Part shown: positions 1-6,468 of the stretch, in pieces
Layout of the letters: every line of letters starts with the position of its first letter
Numbering within the stretch: the first letter of the stretch is position 1
Assembly (NCBI GenBank): GCA_015075105.1
Contig: JABTUZ010000001.1
Location: 631,001 to 695,000 of the forward strand
DNA from: Leptospiraceae bacterium
GTDB taxonomy: Bacteria; Spirochaetota; Leptospiria; Leptospirales; Leptospiraceae
Length of the DNA stretch: 64,000 bases
Reading direction: 5' to 3'
Made by a program: the position numbers and the translations under genes
The notes under the pieces: model-generated
The model's database searches: none
What the model was told of the DNA's origin: nothing
Seen by the model: the letters and a program-made list of their open reading frames with translations, nothing else

Positions 1-2
1 AA

Positions 3-1805
3 GGAGAATTTAAACAGGGAGATAGTTTTGAGGAAAAGAGCTTACATTCTCTAATTGATTTTTATAAATCTTCTTTAGCAATACACGAGGATTGGCAAGT
101 TTTCAACTTTCAATTTCAGAACACTTCCAACTATAAAGATATTTCTCAATTCTATAGAGAAGTAGAGAGTCAAGGTTATAAGATGAGTTTTACACCAATC
201 TCAAAATCTTATATAGATAAATTGGTAGAAGAAGGGAAACTCTATCTTTTTCAAATTTATAGTAAAGATTTTTCACAGAACAAAAAGAAAAAGGAAGGAA
301 AACCAAATCTACATACCATTTATTTTAAAACTTTGTTTGATAAAGAAAATTTGAAAGATGTCGTATTGAAGCTAAATGGAAAGGCAGAAGTATTCTATAG
401 AAAAAAATCCATTGAATACGATGAAAAGAAAATCCACGAAGGATTTCATATAGATAAAATTCGTGGTAAATTTTCTTATCCTATTATAAAAGATAAGAGA
501 TTTACAGAAAATAAATTCCATTTTCATTTTCCGATTACTTTGAATTTTAAATCGGGTGAAATGAAACAATTTAATGCAAAGGTCAACGAGTTTTTAAAAA
601 CGAATAAGGATGTGAAAATTATCGGCATAGATCGAGGAGAAAGGCACTTACTCTATATCTCTATAATTGACCAAACCGGAAAAATTTTAAAGCAAGAGTC
701 TTTAAACCTAATTCAAAACGATCGGAGGTTTTCAAGTGTGAACTATAAAGAAAAACTTCAAACTAAGGAAAACGAAAGAGATAAGGCAAGAAAATCTTGG
801 GGGACTATAGAAAATATTAAAGAGCTAAAAGAAGGATATTTATCCCAAGTAGTTCTTAAGATTTCTGAGATGATGGTAGAGCATAAAGCAATTGTAGTAT
901 TGGAAGATTTGAATTTTGGGTTTAAAAGAGGGAGACAAAAAGTAGAAAGACAGGTCTATCAGAAGTTTGAAAAAATGCTTATAGAGAAACTCAACTTTTT
1001 GGTATTTAAAGACAAAAAAGATAACGAGGCAGGTGGAGTTTTGAAGGCGTATCAACTAACGGATAAATTTACGAGCTTTGAAAAAATAGGAAAACAAACT
1101 GGATTTTTATTTTACGTCCCAGCTTGGAACACAAGTAAGATTGATCCAAAAACAGGTTTTGTGAATTTTTTGAATTTGACTTACGAAAATGTAAAACAAG
1201 CAAAGGAGCTTATTAAAAAATTTGAAAGTATTCGGTTTAATACTAAAAATAAGCAGTTTGAGTTTAAAGTAAATTCAAATTCTTTTTTCTCAAAAGAGAA
1301 GGCACCGAGGGAAAGAGTTTGGACGATTTTCTCTACCGATGAAATAAGGTATTTTACTAAAAAGACTCAAAACAGCTCAATTTCTACCCAAGAAATAAAC
1401 GTGAACGAAAAACTAAAAGAGCTATTTAAAGAATCTGGTTATGAAACCGGGATAGAATTAAAAGAAAAAATTTTAGAAAAGGATACTAAGGAATTTTTTA
1501 GCTCTCTAATTTTTTATTTGAGGGTCTTAACGAATTTAAGACAAAATAATGGTAAGACAGGAGAAGATGAAAAAGATTTTATTTTGTCGCCAGTAAAAGA
1601 TAAGTCTGGAAAATTTTTTAATTCGTTGAACGGAAAACATGATGAGCCAAAAGACGCAGATGCAAATGGAGCCTACCACATTGCTCTAAAAGGTTTAATG
1701 AACCTAAAAGTTTTGAGTGAAACAAAAGATGAGGAATTAGAAAGACCCAGTTGGAAAAATAAAAACAAAGACTGGTTGGATTTTATTTGGGAATTCCACG
1801 AATAA
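3..1805 (+). CDS. cas12a: Cas12a (Cpf1) CRISPR effector nuclease, 5' end outside window
   Basis: This is the type V-A RNA-guided DNA nuclease; it processes its own pre-crRNA and cuts both target strands with one RuvC site. The frame is open from base 3, so the N-terminal recognition lobe lies upstream of the window. The RuvC-I motif IGIDRGERHLLY (Asp codon at 630), RuvC-II VVLEDLNFGFK (Glu codon at 903) and RuvC-III DADANGAYHIA (around 1653-1661) are all present. The Nuc-domain stretch TGEDEKDFILSPV lies between RuvC-II and III. No stop or frameshift occurs in the visible 600 codons, so the effector looks functional. The matching repeat array lies 3.7 kb downstream on the same strand. Family identity is certain; activity is inferred. 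Confidence 0.97.
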   Translation, partial: GEFKQGDSFEEKSLHSLIDFYKSSLAIHEDWQVFNFQFQNTSNYKDISQFYREVESQGYKMSFTPISKSYIDKLVEEGKLYLFQIYSKDFSQNKKKKEGKPNLHTIYFKTLFDKENLKDVVLKLNGKAEVFYRKKSIEYDEKKIHEGFHIDKIRGKFSYPIIKDKRFTENKFHFHFPITLNFKSGEMKQFNAKVNEFLKTNKDVKIIGIDRGERHLLYISIIDQTGKILKQESLNLIQNDRRFSSVNYKEKLQTKENERDKARKSWGTIENIKELKEGYLSQVVLKISEMMVEHKAIVVLEDLNFGFKRGRQKVERQVYQKFEKMLIEKLNFLVFKDKKDNEAGGVLKAYQLTDKFTSFEKIGKQTGFLFYVPAWNTSKIDPKTGFVNFLNLTYENVKQAKELIKKFESIRFNTKNKQFEFKVNSNSFFSKEKAPRERVWTIFSTDEIRYFTKKTQNSSISTQEINVNEKLKELFKESGYETGIELKEKILEKDTKEFFSSLIFYLRVLTNLRQNNGKTGEDEKDFILSPVKDKSGKFFNSLNGKHDEPKDADANGAYHIALKGLMNLKVLSETKDEELERPSWKNKNKDWLDFIWEFHE

Positions 1806-1834
1806 AATATACGGTTATATAGGTTTGTGCAGTT

Positions 1835-1923
1835 GTAGGGGTTGAATAGATTTTAGATTGTAGATAGGTTTTAGAGGATAGATGTAGGTGATGATGTAGG
1901 GGTTGAAAATTTTCAACCCCTAC
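1835..1923. repeat. REP-like palindrome beside the RAYT transposase
   Basis: A 28-nt perfect palindrome at 1896-1923 begins GTAGGGGTTGAAAA and ends with its reverse complement. A direct copy of its first 12 bases, GTAGGGGTTGAA, lies at 1835-1846. A GTAG foot next to a hairpin is the known hallmark of REP elements mobilised by RAYT proteins, and the RAYT gene ends 11 bases away. The hairpin could also act as a bidirectional terminator for the convergent cas12a and RAYT genes. Confidence 0.6.
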
Positions 1924-1933
1924 GAATTTATAA

Positions 1934-2464
1934 TTAATAATATTCATCATCATGCCAATTAGCGGGATTATTTTTGATATATTTTGAAATAGTCCAGTAC
2001 AATTGTTCATTACGGATAATGTGTTCGTAATAATTGCGCTGCCATATAGCACGCTCTATAGGAAAATCATCCATCGAGGCATTTCTGAACCATTTTGTAA
2101 CCCCAATTTTATACCCTTTCACAATGGAACTAATAGAACGGGGTATCATTTTTTGGAATTGATTTTGCGAATACGGTCGTGGAGGGTGATGGTTTTCAAT
2201 CAATTCAATTATTCCGTGAACATGATTTGGCATTACAACATATTCGTGTAATTTGGCATTGGGAAAATGATTAGGAATATCCATCCAAAATTGGTTTGCA
2301 ATTTTACCTGCATCATTCAATACCATTTCTCCATTAGCAATATTCCCAAACAAATATTCTTTATTTTTACAACAGATTGTAATAAAATACAATCCTGCCT
2401 GCGAATAATCATATCCTTTCAGGCGTATTGGTCTTCGTTTATGAATTTTAGGATTATAACTCAT
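1934..2464 (-). CDS. REP-associated tyrosine transposase (RAYT, IS200-like Y1 family)
   Basis: This is a 176-aa HUH single-strand transposase. The HUH motif is MPNHVHGI with His81 and His83. Tyr145/Tyr146 in NYYEHIIR supply the candidate catalytic tyrosine, and the C-terminal KYIKNNPANW block is typical of RAYTs. The gene is intact and runs convergent to cas12a. It occupies the place between cas12a and cas2 where cas4 and cas1 usually sit in type V-A loci. RAYTs are usually single-copy domesticated genes that act on REP hairpins, and one REP-like palindrome lies just past its 3' end. Family assignment is strong; mobility is unknown. Confidence 0.9.
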   Translation of the reverse strand: MSYNPKIHKRRPIRLKGYDYSQAGLYFITICCKNKEYLFGNIANGEMVLNDAGKIANQFWMDIPNHFPNAKLHEYVVMPNHVHGIIELIENHHPPRPYSQNQFQKMIPRSISSIVKGYKIGVTKWFRNASMDDFPIERAIWQRNYYEHIIRNEQLYWTISKYIKNNPANWHDDEYY

Positions 2465-2618
2465 AAATTGTCTTTTTTAAACTCTCTTTGATAGCATTAT
2501 CTAATCTACTCGCTTTTTGCACTTGCGCTGAAAGCATTATCATTAAATGGCTATAAATCTTGTAAATCGAATTCAAGATAAACTTTCCAAAGCATCTAGT
2601 ATAATATATGCTACTCAT
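2454..2618 (-). other. possible small ORF (54 codons) between RAYT and cas2
   Basis: An ATG-started frame of 54 codons lies upstream of the RAYT gene and overlaps its start in another frame. It also overlaps the first codons of cas2 on the opposite strand. The predicted peptide ends in a helical stretch around NAIKESLKKTI. It has no recognisable family and no clear ribosome binding site, so it may be chance. The interval holds no convincing remnant of cas1. Confidence 0.2.
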
Positions 2619-2862
2619 CTCTTACGACATAAGCGATACAAAACTTAGAACAAAATTTTCAAAGTACTTGCAAAAATACGGCGAAAGATTACAGTATTCT
2701 GTGTTCGAGATCAAAAATAGCGAGAGAATACTCGAAAATATAGAAACTCAAATCAAACACTATTTTGAAAAAAAGTTCTCTCAAGACGACAGTATTATGA
2801 TATTTAAAATGAGCACGCATTGCAAGATTACCCGCTATGGATACGCCAAAAACCAAGAATGA
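2608..2862 (+). CDS. cas2: Cas2 adaptation protein, C-terminus cut by an IS end
   Basis: This small ferredoxin-fold protein normally bridges two Cas1 dimers during spacer acquisition. The Cas2 signature LLISYDISDTKLRTKF at the N-terminus, RLQYSVFEI and ITRYGYAKNQE are clear. The 84-residue frame ends at a TGA that is the first three bases of the IS3-family terminal repeat beginning at 2860. Cas2 proteins normally continue for a few residues into a final beta strand. Such a tail, DDVLIF-stop, is readable just past the far end of the element at 4103-4123. The insertion has therefore replaced the native C-terminus. No cas1 is visible beside it, so adaptation is probably lost. Confidence 0.9.
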   Translation: MLLISYDISDTKLRTKFSKYLQKYGERLQYSVFEIKNSERILENIETQIKHYFEKKFSQDDSIMIFKMSTHCKITRYGYAKNQE

Positions 2863-4098
2863 ACTGTACCCGAAAAAGTGTAGAAATTTTAGCCTTTAAA
2901 AGAGGATAAAAATGACCAAGGGACCAAAAACAAGGAAACATATACAGAGGAATTCAAAAAGGATGCAGTAAATCATTTTATTTCATCCGGCAAATCAGCA
3001 AAAGAAATTGCTTCCAATTTAGGAATACGAAAAGATCTTTTGTATCATTGGAGAAAGAATTTACAATTCAAGAAAGGTGATATAATGGAAAAGAAAATCG
3101 ATCCCAAAGATATTGAAATCCAACAGCTTCAGTATGAATTGTCCGAAGCAAAGATGGAACGTGATATCTTAAAAAGGCTATGGCCGTTCTCTCAAAACTA
3201 CAGAAATAATAGTATGTGTGATAAATGAAAACCGTAAGGAATATACGGTAGAGAGAATGTGCAGGGTTTTAGAATATCACCCAGTAACTATTACAAGAAG
3301 CGGAGAGCCAATTCTTCTGAAAGAAAATTTCAAGATGGAATTCTGAAACGAAAGAGATATTGAATATTTACGAAAAGAACGAAAAAGTTTATGGAGCGAG
3401 GAGAATTGTAAAAGAGCTACATCAACAGGAAAAATTTTATAGGGAAAAGAAGAGTAAAAAGGGACTCATGAAAGAGCTGAAAATACAGGGTATTAACCTG
3501 CAAGATTTCGACTCACAACAACTGCAACGAATCAAAATCTCCCAGTCTCTCCAAATCTCCTGGATCGAAATTTTTTACATATGCACCAAATAAAGTTTAA
3601 ATTTGATAATATACATATATCAAAATAAAAATGGATTTTATTATTTGTGTGTAATCGTCGATTTATATTCCAGAAAAGTAGTTGGCTGGTCGTTGAAAAA
3701 CCATATGAAAAAAACTTGTGATTGATGCTCTCAGAAGTGCCATCAGAAAAAGGAAGCCTGCTTCAGATTAATATTTCATTCGGACAGAGGTTCTCAATAT
3801 CAAAGCAATCTGTTCCGAAAAATTTTATTCTGAAATGGTTTTGAATCCAGTATGAGCCGCAAAGGAGTTATTGTTGGATAATGCAGTTGCAGAATCTTTT
3901 CAAGACAATCAAAAACAGAATTGATTTATAGAAATAAATTTGAAAATTATGAAGAATTGAGAAAAGATGTTTCTCAAATATATTGAAGTATTTTACAATA
4001 GGAAAAGACTTCATTCTTTCATTGGCTATCAAAGCCCTTCAAAGTTTGAAGAAAAATTTGTGGCTTAAAAATCTCTCCAATAAAACGGGTACACCTCA
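2860..4098 (+). mobile_element. degenerate IS3-family insertion sequence in the end of cas2
   Basis: The element is about 1.24 kb. Its left end TGAACTGTACCCGAAAA (2860-2876) pairs with TGAGGTGTACCCGTTTT, the reverse complement of 4082-4098. Inside are an OrfA-like HTH with the motif KSAKEIASNLGIRKDLLYHW near 2990-3050 and a coiled segment ending in DILKRLW. OrfB fragments follow: VYGARRIVKELH near 3390, [11 protein letters not shown] near 3670 and RKRLHSFIGYQSP near 4000. Several frameshifts and internal stops separate these pieces, so no transposase can be made. The 3-base flanks are GAA and GAC, so no exact target duplication is visible. Confidence 0.88.
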
Positions 4099-4102
4099 GA
4101 CC

Positions 4103-4123
4103 GATGATGTACTCATTTTCTAA
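4103..4123 (+). pseudogene. displaced 3' tail of cas2
   Basis: Immediately outside the right end of the IS3-family element one frame reads Asp-Asp-Val-Leu-Ile-Phe-stop. Cas2 proteins commonly end in an acidic pair followed by hydrophobic residues, and cas2 upstream stops abruptly at the left IS end. I infer that these codons are the original end of cas2. The reading frame across the junction cannot be proven because the target duplication is not clear. Confidence 0.55.
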
Positions 4124-4332
4124 ATTGCAAACCTCAGTCTCAATGCAAAAAAATCACATATAAAAATATTTTTAGGTATTTTTACTGTGATAACTGCGTT
4201 TTTTGTAATATATGATTTTGTGCAGCTAAATGATTATTTTGGAATGGGGGATATTATTGCTGCAAGAGAAAGACAAGAAATGGTCTTGCCCCCTAAAACT
4301 GGAATACAAAAAAAGGGGATAAAGGAGACTTG
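4124..4332 (+). other. open frame for a one-TM peptide in the cas2-array interval
   Basis: After the cas2-like stop a frame stays open for 69 codons with no early ATG. It encodes one hydrophobic helix, IFLGIFTVITAFFVIYDF, followed by a charged segment with ARERQEM. It then enters the second IS at 4287. Its position is that of a CRISPR leader, so the frame may be accidental. It could also be a 5'-truncated fragment of a small membrane protein gene. I do not recognise a family. Confidence 0.25.
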
Positions 4333-5483
4333 ATAATATGATAAGAAGAAATAACTATGGCAAAGAATTTAAGGAAAAAATAGTAATGGAAATTTTGTCC
4401 GGGCAGAGTTCCGTTTCGCAAATAGCTCAAAGGGAAAAGGTAAATCCTCAAACAATCCGAAATTGGAGAAATGAGATAGATACAGGAAAGTTTGAACAAA
4501 ATAATCAAACCGAATTTGCTTTAAAAGAAACGAGTCGTAGAATTGGAAGGTGCACTTGCCAACCTTGCGTTAGATAATCACATTTAAAAAAGCCAAAAAT
4601 ATCTGCAAGACTGAAGCAAAAAGAGAAATTATCAGGAAGTATCTCGCACCAGAATTTGAATTGTAAAAGCTGTAAAAGCTTTGGAGATCAGTATCTCTTC
4701 CTTTTATTACCAATCGGATGCAAAGATTAAAAGAAAACAGGAGGATAAGCAACTAATAGAAAAGATTAAAGCATATCTGGATTTAATGCCTCAATCAGGT
4801 TACAGGTCTGTCACTTATTTTCTGAGAAATGATATGAAAATCAATCATAAGCGAGTTTACAGGATCATGCATGAAAACCTTTTAAAATGCAGTCCGAAGA
4901 AGGCTTATCATCATGCGACCACGGATTCAAAACATAACCTGAAAAATATCCAAATCTTCTTAAGGACAAGTCAATTAATCAATGCACAGTAATAGTTGGT
5001 GATGTTACTTTTTTGATGTTCAGGGGAAAAATCATTATCTGGCATCACTAATGGATATGGAAACAGAGAGGTCATCGGACGAGCTGTTTCTGATAAACTT
5101 AATAGTGAACTTGTCAGTGTCTGCATTTGAGTCGGCTCTCATGAACAGAGGAAGTCTCGAAGGTTACATTCATCATACTGATTCTGATAGAAGATATTGT
5201 TCGTTGAATATATAGAACTTTGAACAATTCCAAATACAAATTTCAATGTGTCTTGGTAATGCATATGAAAATGCACACGCAGAATCTTTTAATAAAACTA
5301 TCAAGTATCAAGAGATAAATATCTCCTGTTATGCTGATAAAATTGAAGCAGCCAAAAGTATTTTTCAATTTATTGATCGGTACAATTCAATCAGACCTCA
5401 TTCAGCTTTAGGAGGACTATCTCCTCTGCAATTTAAAAATAAACAAAAAATATGATTTTTTTCTTTACAGTTTTAGGGGGGCA
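4287..5483 (+). mobile_element. second degenerate IS3-family element, inside the CRISPR leader
   Basis: The element is about 1.2 kb. The left end TGCCCCCTAAAACTG (4287-4301) pairs with TGCCCCCCTAAAACTG, the reverse complement of 5468-5483. OrfA starts at 4338 with an HTH (SVSQIAQREKVNPQTIRNW) and shifts frame near 4520. OrfB pieces include SGYRSVTYFLRNDMKINHKR from about 4795, HHTDSDRRYCS near 5175 and NAYENAHAESFNKTIKYQE near 5260, ending in YNSIRPHSALGGLSP. Frameshifts and stops near 4990, 5010, 5130 and 5210 make it inactive. It differs in ends and protein from the element at 2860-4098, so the two are independent insertions. Confidence 0.88.
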
Positions 5484-5516
5484 CTTCAATCGAATTTCAA
5501 ACACCATGAAAAATTT
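5484..5516 (+). promoter_or_regulatory. leader-proximal remnant of the CRISPR array
   Basis: These 33 bases separate the IS end from the first repeat. Together with 4124-4286 they would rebuild an interval of about 196 bases between cas2 and the array, the usual size of a leader. No promoter elements are obvious in the 33 bases alone, so array transcription may now start inside the IS or the older leader DNA upstream. Confidence 0.4.
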
Positions 5517-5734
5517 CTCTAAAAGAGGAAAAAAATTTCTACTATTGTAGATTTCGGCTGCGTCCTCAAAACCAAACACTCTAAAAGAGGAAAAAAATTT
5601 CTACTATTGTAGATTCAAAAAGCAAATTTGTTATTTGTAACTCTAAAAGAGGAAAAAAATTTCTACTATTGTAGATGTTGCTAACTTTTCAACTTCGTTT
5701 GCTCTAAAAGAGGAAAAAAATTTCTACTATTGTA
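5517..5734 (+). CRISPR. type V-A CRISPR array, 4 repeats and 3 spacers
   Basis: The 36-nt repeats start CTCTAAAAGAGG and end AATTTCTACTATTGTAGAT, the Cas12a crRNA handle (stem TCTAC/GTAGA, loop TATT). They lie at 5517-5552, 5579-5614, 5641-5676 and 5702-5734. The first three are identical; the last loses the final bases of the handle, which marks the leader-distal end. Spacers are 5553-5578 (26 nt), 5615-5640 (26 nt) and 5677-5701 (25 nt). The orientation agrees with cas12a. I saw no match to any spacer by eye elsewhere in the window. Confidence 0.97.
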
Positions 5735-5832
5735 ATGCCATCGGGCTAAAGACCACTGGCATGGATTCTGAAAGACATGCTAAGCTAATTGACCTATAAG
5801 AGAGAAATAAAAACTTGTTAGAATAGGGGATT

Positions 5833-6468
5833 ATGGGAAGAAGGGCACAAACTGAAACCGAGAAAGAAGAAATCCGAAATAAAATACTCGATGCAACTTT
5901 AGAGCTTATTTCCAAAGAAGGATACAAGGGATTTAGTATGAGAAAGTTGGGTCCGATGCTCGGAGTTGCACCGAAAACAATTTATAATTATTTTCAAAGC
6001 AAAGAAGAAATCTATCTACACGTCTTAACCAAGGGTTTTGATTTGCTGTATGAAGAGCTTGTTCAGTGTTCAAAATTGGAAGTGCATCCATTTCAAAAAG
6101 TTTTTGAAATTATAAAAACCTACATTAAATTCGGATTTGAAAAATCGAATTATTACGATGTTATGTTTACTTGGTATGTACCTAAATACAATGATTTTGT
6201 TGGTACTGCATTAGAGTCCTTGGCTTATAACGAATTGCAGTCTGCTTTAAAATGTTTTCAGATATTGGTAGAAAGTATTCGGCAAGTGAAAAATAATTTA
6301 TTAACAGAAGAGAGGGTGAATTTATTTTCGCTTCAACTTCTTGTTTCTGTGCACGGGATTGTGGCTCTAAGAAATAATACAATTCTTGGGTATGTACATG
6401 AAAATCCAGATTCTATAATTGAGCCATTAATTCTATCTATTTTAGATCCTTTGAATCCTAAAATATAA
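5833..6468 (+). CDS. TetR/AcrR-family transcriptional regulator
   Basis: This 211-aa protein has an N-terminal TetR helix-turn-helix (roughly residues 15-60, with GFSMRKLGPMLGVAPKTIYNYF). The ligand domain contains a VHGIVAL stretch like the WHG-type TetR C-terminal domain. Such proteins are ligand-released repressors, often of genes for hydrophobic compounds. It lies 2 kb upstream of and parallel to the glycyl radical enzyme operon, and a 23-bp palindrome suited to a TetR dimer sits in that operon's promoter region. An IS256 remnant now separates the two. The regulator-target link is inference; the family call is firm. Confidence 0.93.
   Translation: MGRRAQTETEKEEIRNKILDATLELISKEGYKGFSMRKLGPMLGVAPKTIYNYFQSKEEIYLHVLTKGFDLLYEELVQCSKLEVHPFQKVFEIIKTYIKFGFEKSNYYDVMFTWYVPKYNDFVGTALESLAYNELQSALKCFQILVESIRQVKNNLLTEERVNLFSLQLLVSVHGIVALRNNTILGYVHENPDSIIEPLILSILDPLNPKI

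Follow-up and report, generated by a model that had tools for sequence, protein, structure and literature searches.

In degenerate cas loci mobile elements interrupt cas genes or leaders, the adaptation module is lost and a short leftover array remains. The closest published parallel that we found for the cas2 gene described here is Cas2C of L. interrogans serovar Lai, a frameshift-truncated protein reported to keep its nuclease activity in vitro (PMC9510766). Like the gene studied here it stems from a related spirochaete and has lost its C-terminal part, and its CRISPR locus has no array (PMC9510766). Lai Cas2C however belongs to type I-C, comprises 58 residues and lost both beta4 and beta5 through a frameshift (PMC9510766), whereas the Cas2 of our locus keeps beta4 and beta5 and lacks only the last 6 residues, due to an insertion sequence (IS). 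From IS-interrupted cas loci in general it differs in that the break lies at the very last cas2 codons, the terminal repeat of the IS supplies the stop codon and a protein remains that is predicted to be foldable. We consider it highly likely (probability of about 0.9) that an IS3 insertion clipped cas2 in a type V-A locus that is now a fossil, in which adaptation probably failed first and Cas2 is left without an integrase role.

The window, i.e. the whole analysed stretch of 64,000 nucleotides (G000:C1:631001-695000 of a 3.42-Mb genome), carries the clipped cas2 on the forward strand at 2608..2862. Its 84 residues were recognised above the respective cut-offs by Pfam CRISPR_Cas2 PF09827 (62.2 bits, E=5e-17, cut-off 23.8) and by the NCBIfam Cas2 model TIGR01573 (48.6 bits, E=7e-13, cut-off 24.5). 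The N-terminal Tyr-Asp pair (Y6 and D7) is invariant in the alignment with relatives, and every other invariant residue of this alignment is unchanged as well. The frame ends on TGA at 2860-2862, which is a normal stop codon in the host genome, since it terminates 10 of the 42 open reading frames of at least 200 aa within the window; a use of TGA as sense codon was ruled out by the same count.

To obtain uninterrupted versions of the gene we scanned bacterial genomes, which provided 33 cas2 relatives, 25 of them with a complete frame that was translated. All 25 measure 89-94 aa and carry a hydrophobic C-terminal segment past the NQE position that is missing in the window Cas2. None of them ends at NQE, such that the truncation claimed by the sequence-only reading stands. 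The nearest carriers are three Leptospiraceae/Leptospirales assemblies from the same family as the window genome; their proteins are 90 aa long and end on NQE-[R/S]-DVLIF. At 90, 88, 83 and 79% identity the C-termini read NQERDVLIF, NQERDVLIF, NQESDVLIF and NRETDVLIV, respectively. The V-A loci L006-L009 (UBA2033, 336R_metabinner_194, WN_Leptospirales bin32 and ADurb.Bin218) share with the window locus the Cas2 lineage (79-90% identity), a leader element and the kind of repeat; unlike it they have intact cas4-cas1-cas2 genes and an array immediately behind the leader, and their Cas12a is distant from that of the window where aligned (33-47%, tblastn). As a side observation, the Cas2 frames of the Patescibacteria/Gracilibacteria relatives L025, L028, L031, L032 and L034 stop early in table 11. 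Some lineages of this type read TGA as glycine, which is possibly the origin of these early stops.

The element that interrupts cas2 is a decayed, 1239 bp long copy of an IS3-family element (2860..4098, forward strand). Searching the genome with 2860-4098 returned three full-length copies of 1242 bp, mutually identical and 97% identical to the window copy, as well as a fourth copy that starts ten bases in and has no left end. The left terminal repeat TGAACTGTACCCG (2860..2872, forward strand) is identical in the three full-length copies and the right one, CGGGTACACCTCA (4086..4098, reverse strand; reverse complement TGAGGTGTACCCG), in all four, while the outer flanks of these copies are unrelated to each other. 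The IS boundaries at 2860 and 4098 are therefore exact, and the proposal that an IS3-family remnant supplies the cas2 stop with its first three bases is thereby confirmed. With TGAACTG...CACCTCA the element has the 5'-TG...CA-3' ends of the IS3 family, and an intact copy (L043) encodes the IS3-type pair of open reading frames, HTH_Tnp_1 followed by HTH_21 and rve. Both element ends begin with TGA, such that any insertion in phase gives an instant stop; an insertion in either of the other phases would be read for about 12-15 codons before a stop. That cas2 stops right at the IS end thus follows from the insertion phase with a chance of 1 in 3 and is no special device.

The window copy differs from the three identical copies by 23 substitutions as well as 15 indel events. 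When the divergent copy L046 served as outgroup, 34 changed columns fell on the side of the window copy versus 1 on the other side. IS3-family elements typically duplicate 3-5 bp of their target site. The flanking triplets form a clean 3-bp duplication at one copy (GTA/GTA), read GAA/GAC at the window copy and show no duplication at two others. Within the IS, positions 2894-2913 resemble the CRISPR repeat in 18 of 20 bases. This region belongs to the IS and is present in its other copies, and we take the likeness as a chance AT-rich similarity.

Past the IS the DNA (4099..4123, forward strand) reads GACCGAT-GATGTACTCATTTTCTAA, the latter part encoding DVLIF and a TAA stop at 4121-4123. Directly after this stop follows TTGCAAACCTCAGTCTCAATG, which is found 3' of cas2 in the relatives too. 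From the DVLIF and DVLIV ends of the closest relatives and from the leader element behind it, the tail is, on sequence grounds, the severed end of the window cas2, in agreement with what had been supposed from the DVLIF-stop reading alone. The junction is imperfect: GAA on the left and GAC on the right differ by one base, and the tail register is off by 1 nt assuming a 3-bp duplication and by 4 nt assuming none. Both the mismatch and the 1 (or 4) surplus bases fit later decay.

Beyond the tail lies the conserved leader start, TTGCAAACC; the leader element (TTGCAAACCTCAGTCTCAATG, 4125..4145, forward strand) has one mismatch to the consensus TTGCAAACCNNNGTCTTAATG. Allowing for at most 2 mismatches, this consensus was present in 15 of 26 V-A leaders (L006-L012, L015, L016, L018, L019, L022, L033, L035 and L076), sitting behind cas2 in loci from several phyla and about 154 nt (SD 13.5) before the TCTACT in the first repeat. 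The pattern TGCAAACCNNNGTCTTMATG matched 4 times in 393 Spirochaetota genomes, each time directly behind a V-A cas2, and its reversed control zero times. The element may act as a leader signal for either Cas1-Cas2 or a host factor. String and keyword look-ups in the main text of a study of V-A acquisition (PMC13034035) returned no description of it, and the matches listed in a literature search with TTGCAAACC were all unrelated.

In relatives the intact order behind cas12a is cas4-cas1-cas2-array. Of this arrangement the window retains the 3' part of cas12a (1..1805, forward strand; TIGR04330, E=5.5e-212), whose gene start lies about 2 kb before the window. The gene contains an in-frame TGA at codon 666 of ~1271 (L003:8986-8988) that precedes the RuvC domain and ends 13 bases short of the window start; otherwise its frame is intact, as seen in one assembly from a continuous one-frame tblastn alignment with this single TGA. 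Between cas12a and cas2 no similarity to cas4 or cas1 was found. Their position is occupied by a gene for a REP-associated tyrosine (Y1) transposase (1934..2464, reverse strand; NF047646, E=5e-16, below the cut-off of this model) that is single-copy in the genome. It is adjoined by a perfect 28-bp REP-like palindrome, GTAGGGGTTGAAAATTTTCAACCCCTAC, at 1896..1923; a close copy of the palindrome lies at C1:423538. A decayed copy of a second, different IS3-type element (4281..5488, forward strand), of which the genome has 13 other near-full-length copies, splits the leader and cuts the conserved element off from the array. Seven of 11 other aligned copies of this IS are nearly identical, and its old copies show small indels about as often as substitutions. 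The array remnant (5517..5738, forward strand) comprises 4 type V-A repeats (CTCTAAAAGAGGAAAAAAATTTCTACTATTGTAGAT), the last one degenerate, and 3 spacers. An Rfam search of 1800-5900 gave zero matches.

A type V cas1 was not found anywhere in the genome. Its two cas1 genes, neither of which scores as type V above the cut-off, belong to a II-B locus with cas9 and to an I-MYXAN-type locus. The former (L004:5364-11649, G000:C1) encodes Cas9/Csx12 (1473 aa frame), cas1, cas2 and cas4 in apparently intact frames, and the latter has an in-frame TGA within a Cas4-Cas1 fusion (L005:9185-9187, G000:C2). The window locus thus has neither the cas4 and cas1 beside cas2 that make up a V-A adaptation module nor the uninterrupted cas12a of an interference module. 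Since cas2 has no cas1/cas4 partner, cas12a carries a nonsense codon and the leader is interrupted by a second IS, the adaptation module looks dead. For these reasons the earlier wording that the gene survives as an 84-residue product was too strong, although the 84-residue frame itself is present. Taken together, the window locus is a case of ordinary CRISPR decay by mobile elements.

What the loss of the tail may mean for the protein was assessed using AlphaFold monomer models of an intact 90-aa relative and of the 84-aa window protein. Both share a core of beta1-alpha1-beta2-beta3-alpha2-beta4-beta5 and a short helix. The 84-mer is predicted to fold confidently (pLDDT 93.5) with beta5 kept, and the 90-mer has a confident core up to about residue 83, its residues 81-90 reaching a mean pLDDT of 59. 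Compared with the PDB, the model of the intact L006 protein fits Cas2 structures; a sequence search of the PDB with L006 returned weak Cas2 relatives only. That the clipped protein lacks its last beta strand, as had been suggested, is plausible, but beta5 is kept in the model and the last residues of the intact relative are poorly ordered. Cas2 dimers use beta5 (PMC9510766). In both E. faecalis and S. thermophilus the C-terminal strand of Cas2 forms a pair with Cas1, and complex formation as well as acquisition fail in E. coli when the Cas2 C-terminus is altered (PMC12216489; PMC6977970). Judging from the models, the 84-residue Cas2 should keep its fold and perhaps dimerises. Since the C-terminal strand docks Cas1 in those complexes, the clipped protein should not build an integrase and would support no spacer integration, the role of the tail being carried over here from Cas1-Cas2 complexes of other CRISPR types rather than from V-A ones.

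The relative age of the damage can be estimated from indels. The two window IS copies contain 26 indels in 2447 bp versus 0 in the ~3.8 kb of cas12a, for which about 40 would be expected at the IS rate. Given that the cas12a frame was kept while both IS copies decayed, adaptation was probably lost before interference, provided that the IS copies decayed in place and did not arrive already broken. Two scenarios would account for the contrast: selection on cas12a continued past the insertions and its stop is recent, or the IS copies were broken on arrival.

Similar reasoning could be applied to cas2 and would suggest that selection keeps the protein as an orphan nuclease or regulator, independent of Cas1. 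Its frame has no indels compared to the many in the adjacent IS copies, its invariant residues are all unaltered, and the truncated Cas2 of serovar Lai was reported to keep DNase as well as RNase activity in vitro (PMC9510766), which leaves a small chance that the window Cas2 does something. However, only about 2.7 indels are expected in cas2 at the IS rate, such that their absence (P(0) about 0.07) is not significant and so short a gene can survive by chance. The remainder of the locus is broken, and the dN/dS of cas2 versus its relatives is uninformative because dS is saturated, such that recent selection is not measurable. We thus regard an orphan role as quite improbable. The wider idea that the tail-less Cas2 was kept as a Cas1-independent nuclease and that cas12a was selected as memory-only defence after the loss of adaptation is very unlikely too.

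Two further explanations deny the truncation altogether. If cas2 were natively 84 aa long and the IS had landed on the gene's own TGA or immediately after it, the DVLIF beyond the IS would be due to chance. IS3 ends read TGA, such that an original stop could indeed coincide with the IS end, but all complete relatives run past the NQE point and on the far side the DVLIF tail is followed by the leader element as in relatives. An original 84-aa Cas2 was hence rejected on the basis of the 25 longer complete relatives, and the probability left to it is minute. Equally hard to credit is an assembly artefact, i.e. a chimeric join at the IS. The element is multicopy and thus a usual site of misassembly; the two flanks are however parts of one gene and its leader, and the window copy carries 38 changes versus the other copies.

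We therefore return to the truncation of cas2 by the IS3 insertion, for which we propose the following course. An IS3-family element transposed into the last cas2 codons of a V-A locus (cas12a-cas4-cas1-cas2) in a Leptospiraceae-type genome. As it inserted in codon phase, the opening TGA of its terminal repeat became the cas2 stop, severing six residues. Further damage comprises the loss of cas4 and cas1, with a REP-type transposase now in their place, the splitting of the leader by the second IS and the nonsense codon in cas12a. The clipped Cas2 would retain its fold and the strands used for dimerisation but miss the Cas1-docking C-terminal strand, making spacer integration impossible, and a type V Cas1 to dock is in any case absent. 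The locus would be a fossil that probably lost adaptation first and interference afterwards.

Whether Cas1 binding by a V-A Cas2 depends on its six C-terminal residues is a question for which the clipped protein provides a natural test case. As a whole, the locus is a clean example of V-A decay, in which adaptation genes would have disappeared or been clipped by mobile elements at a time when the effector frame was still kept, the stop in the effector coming later.
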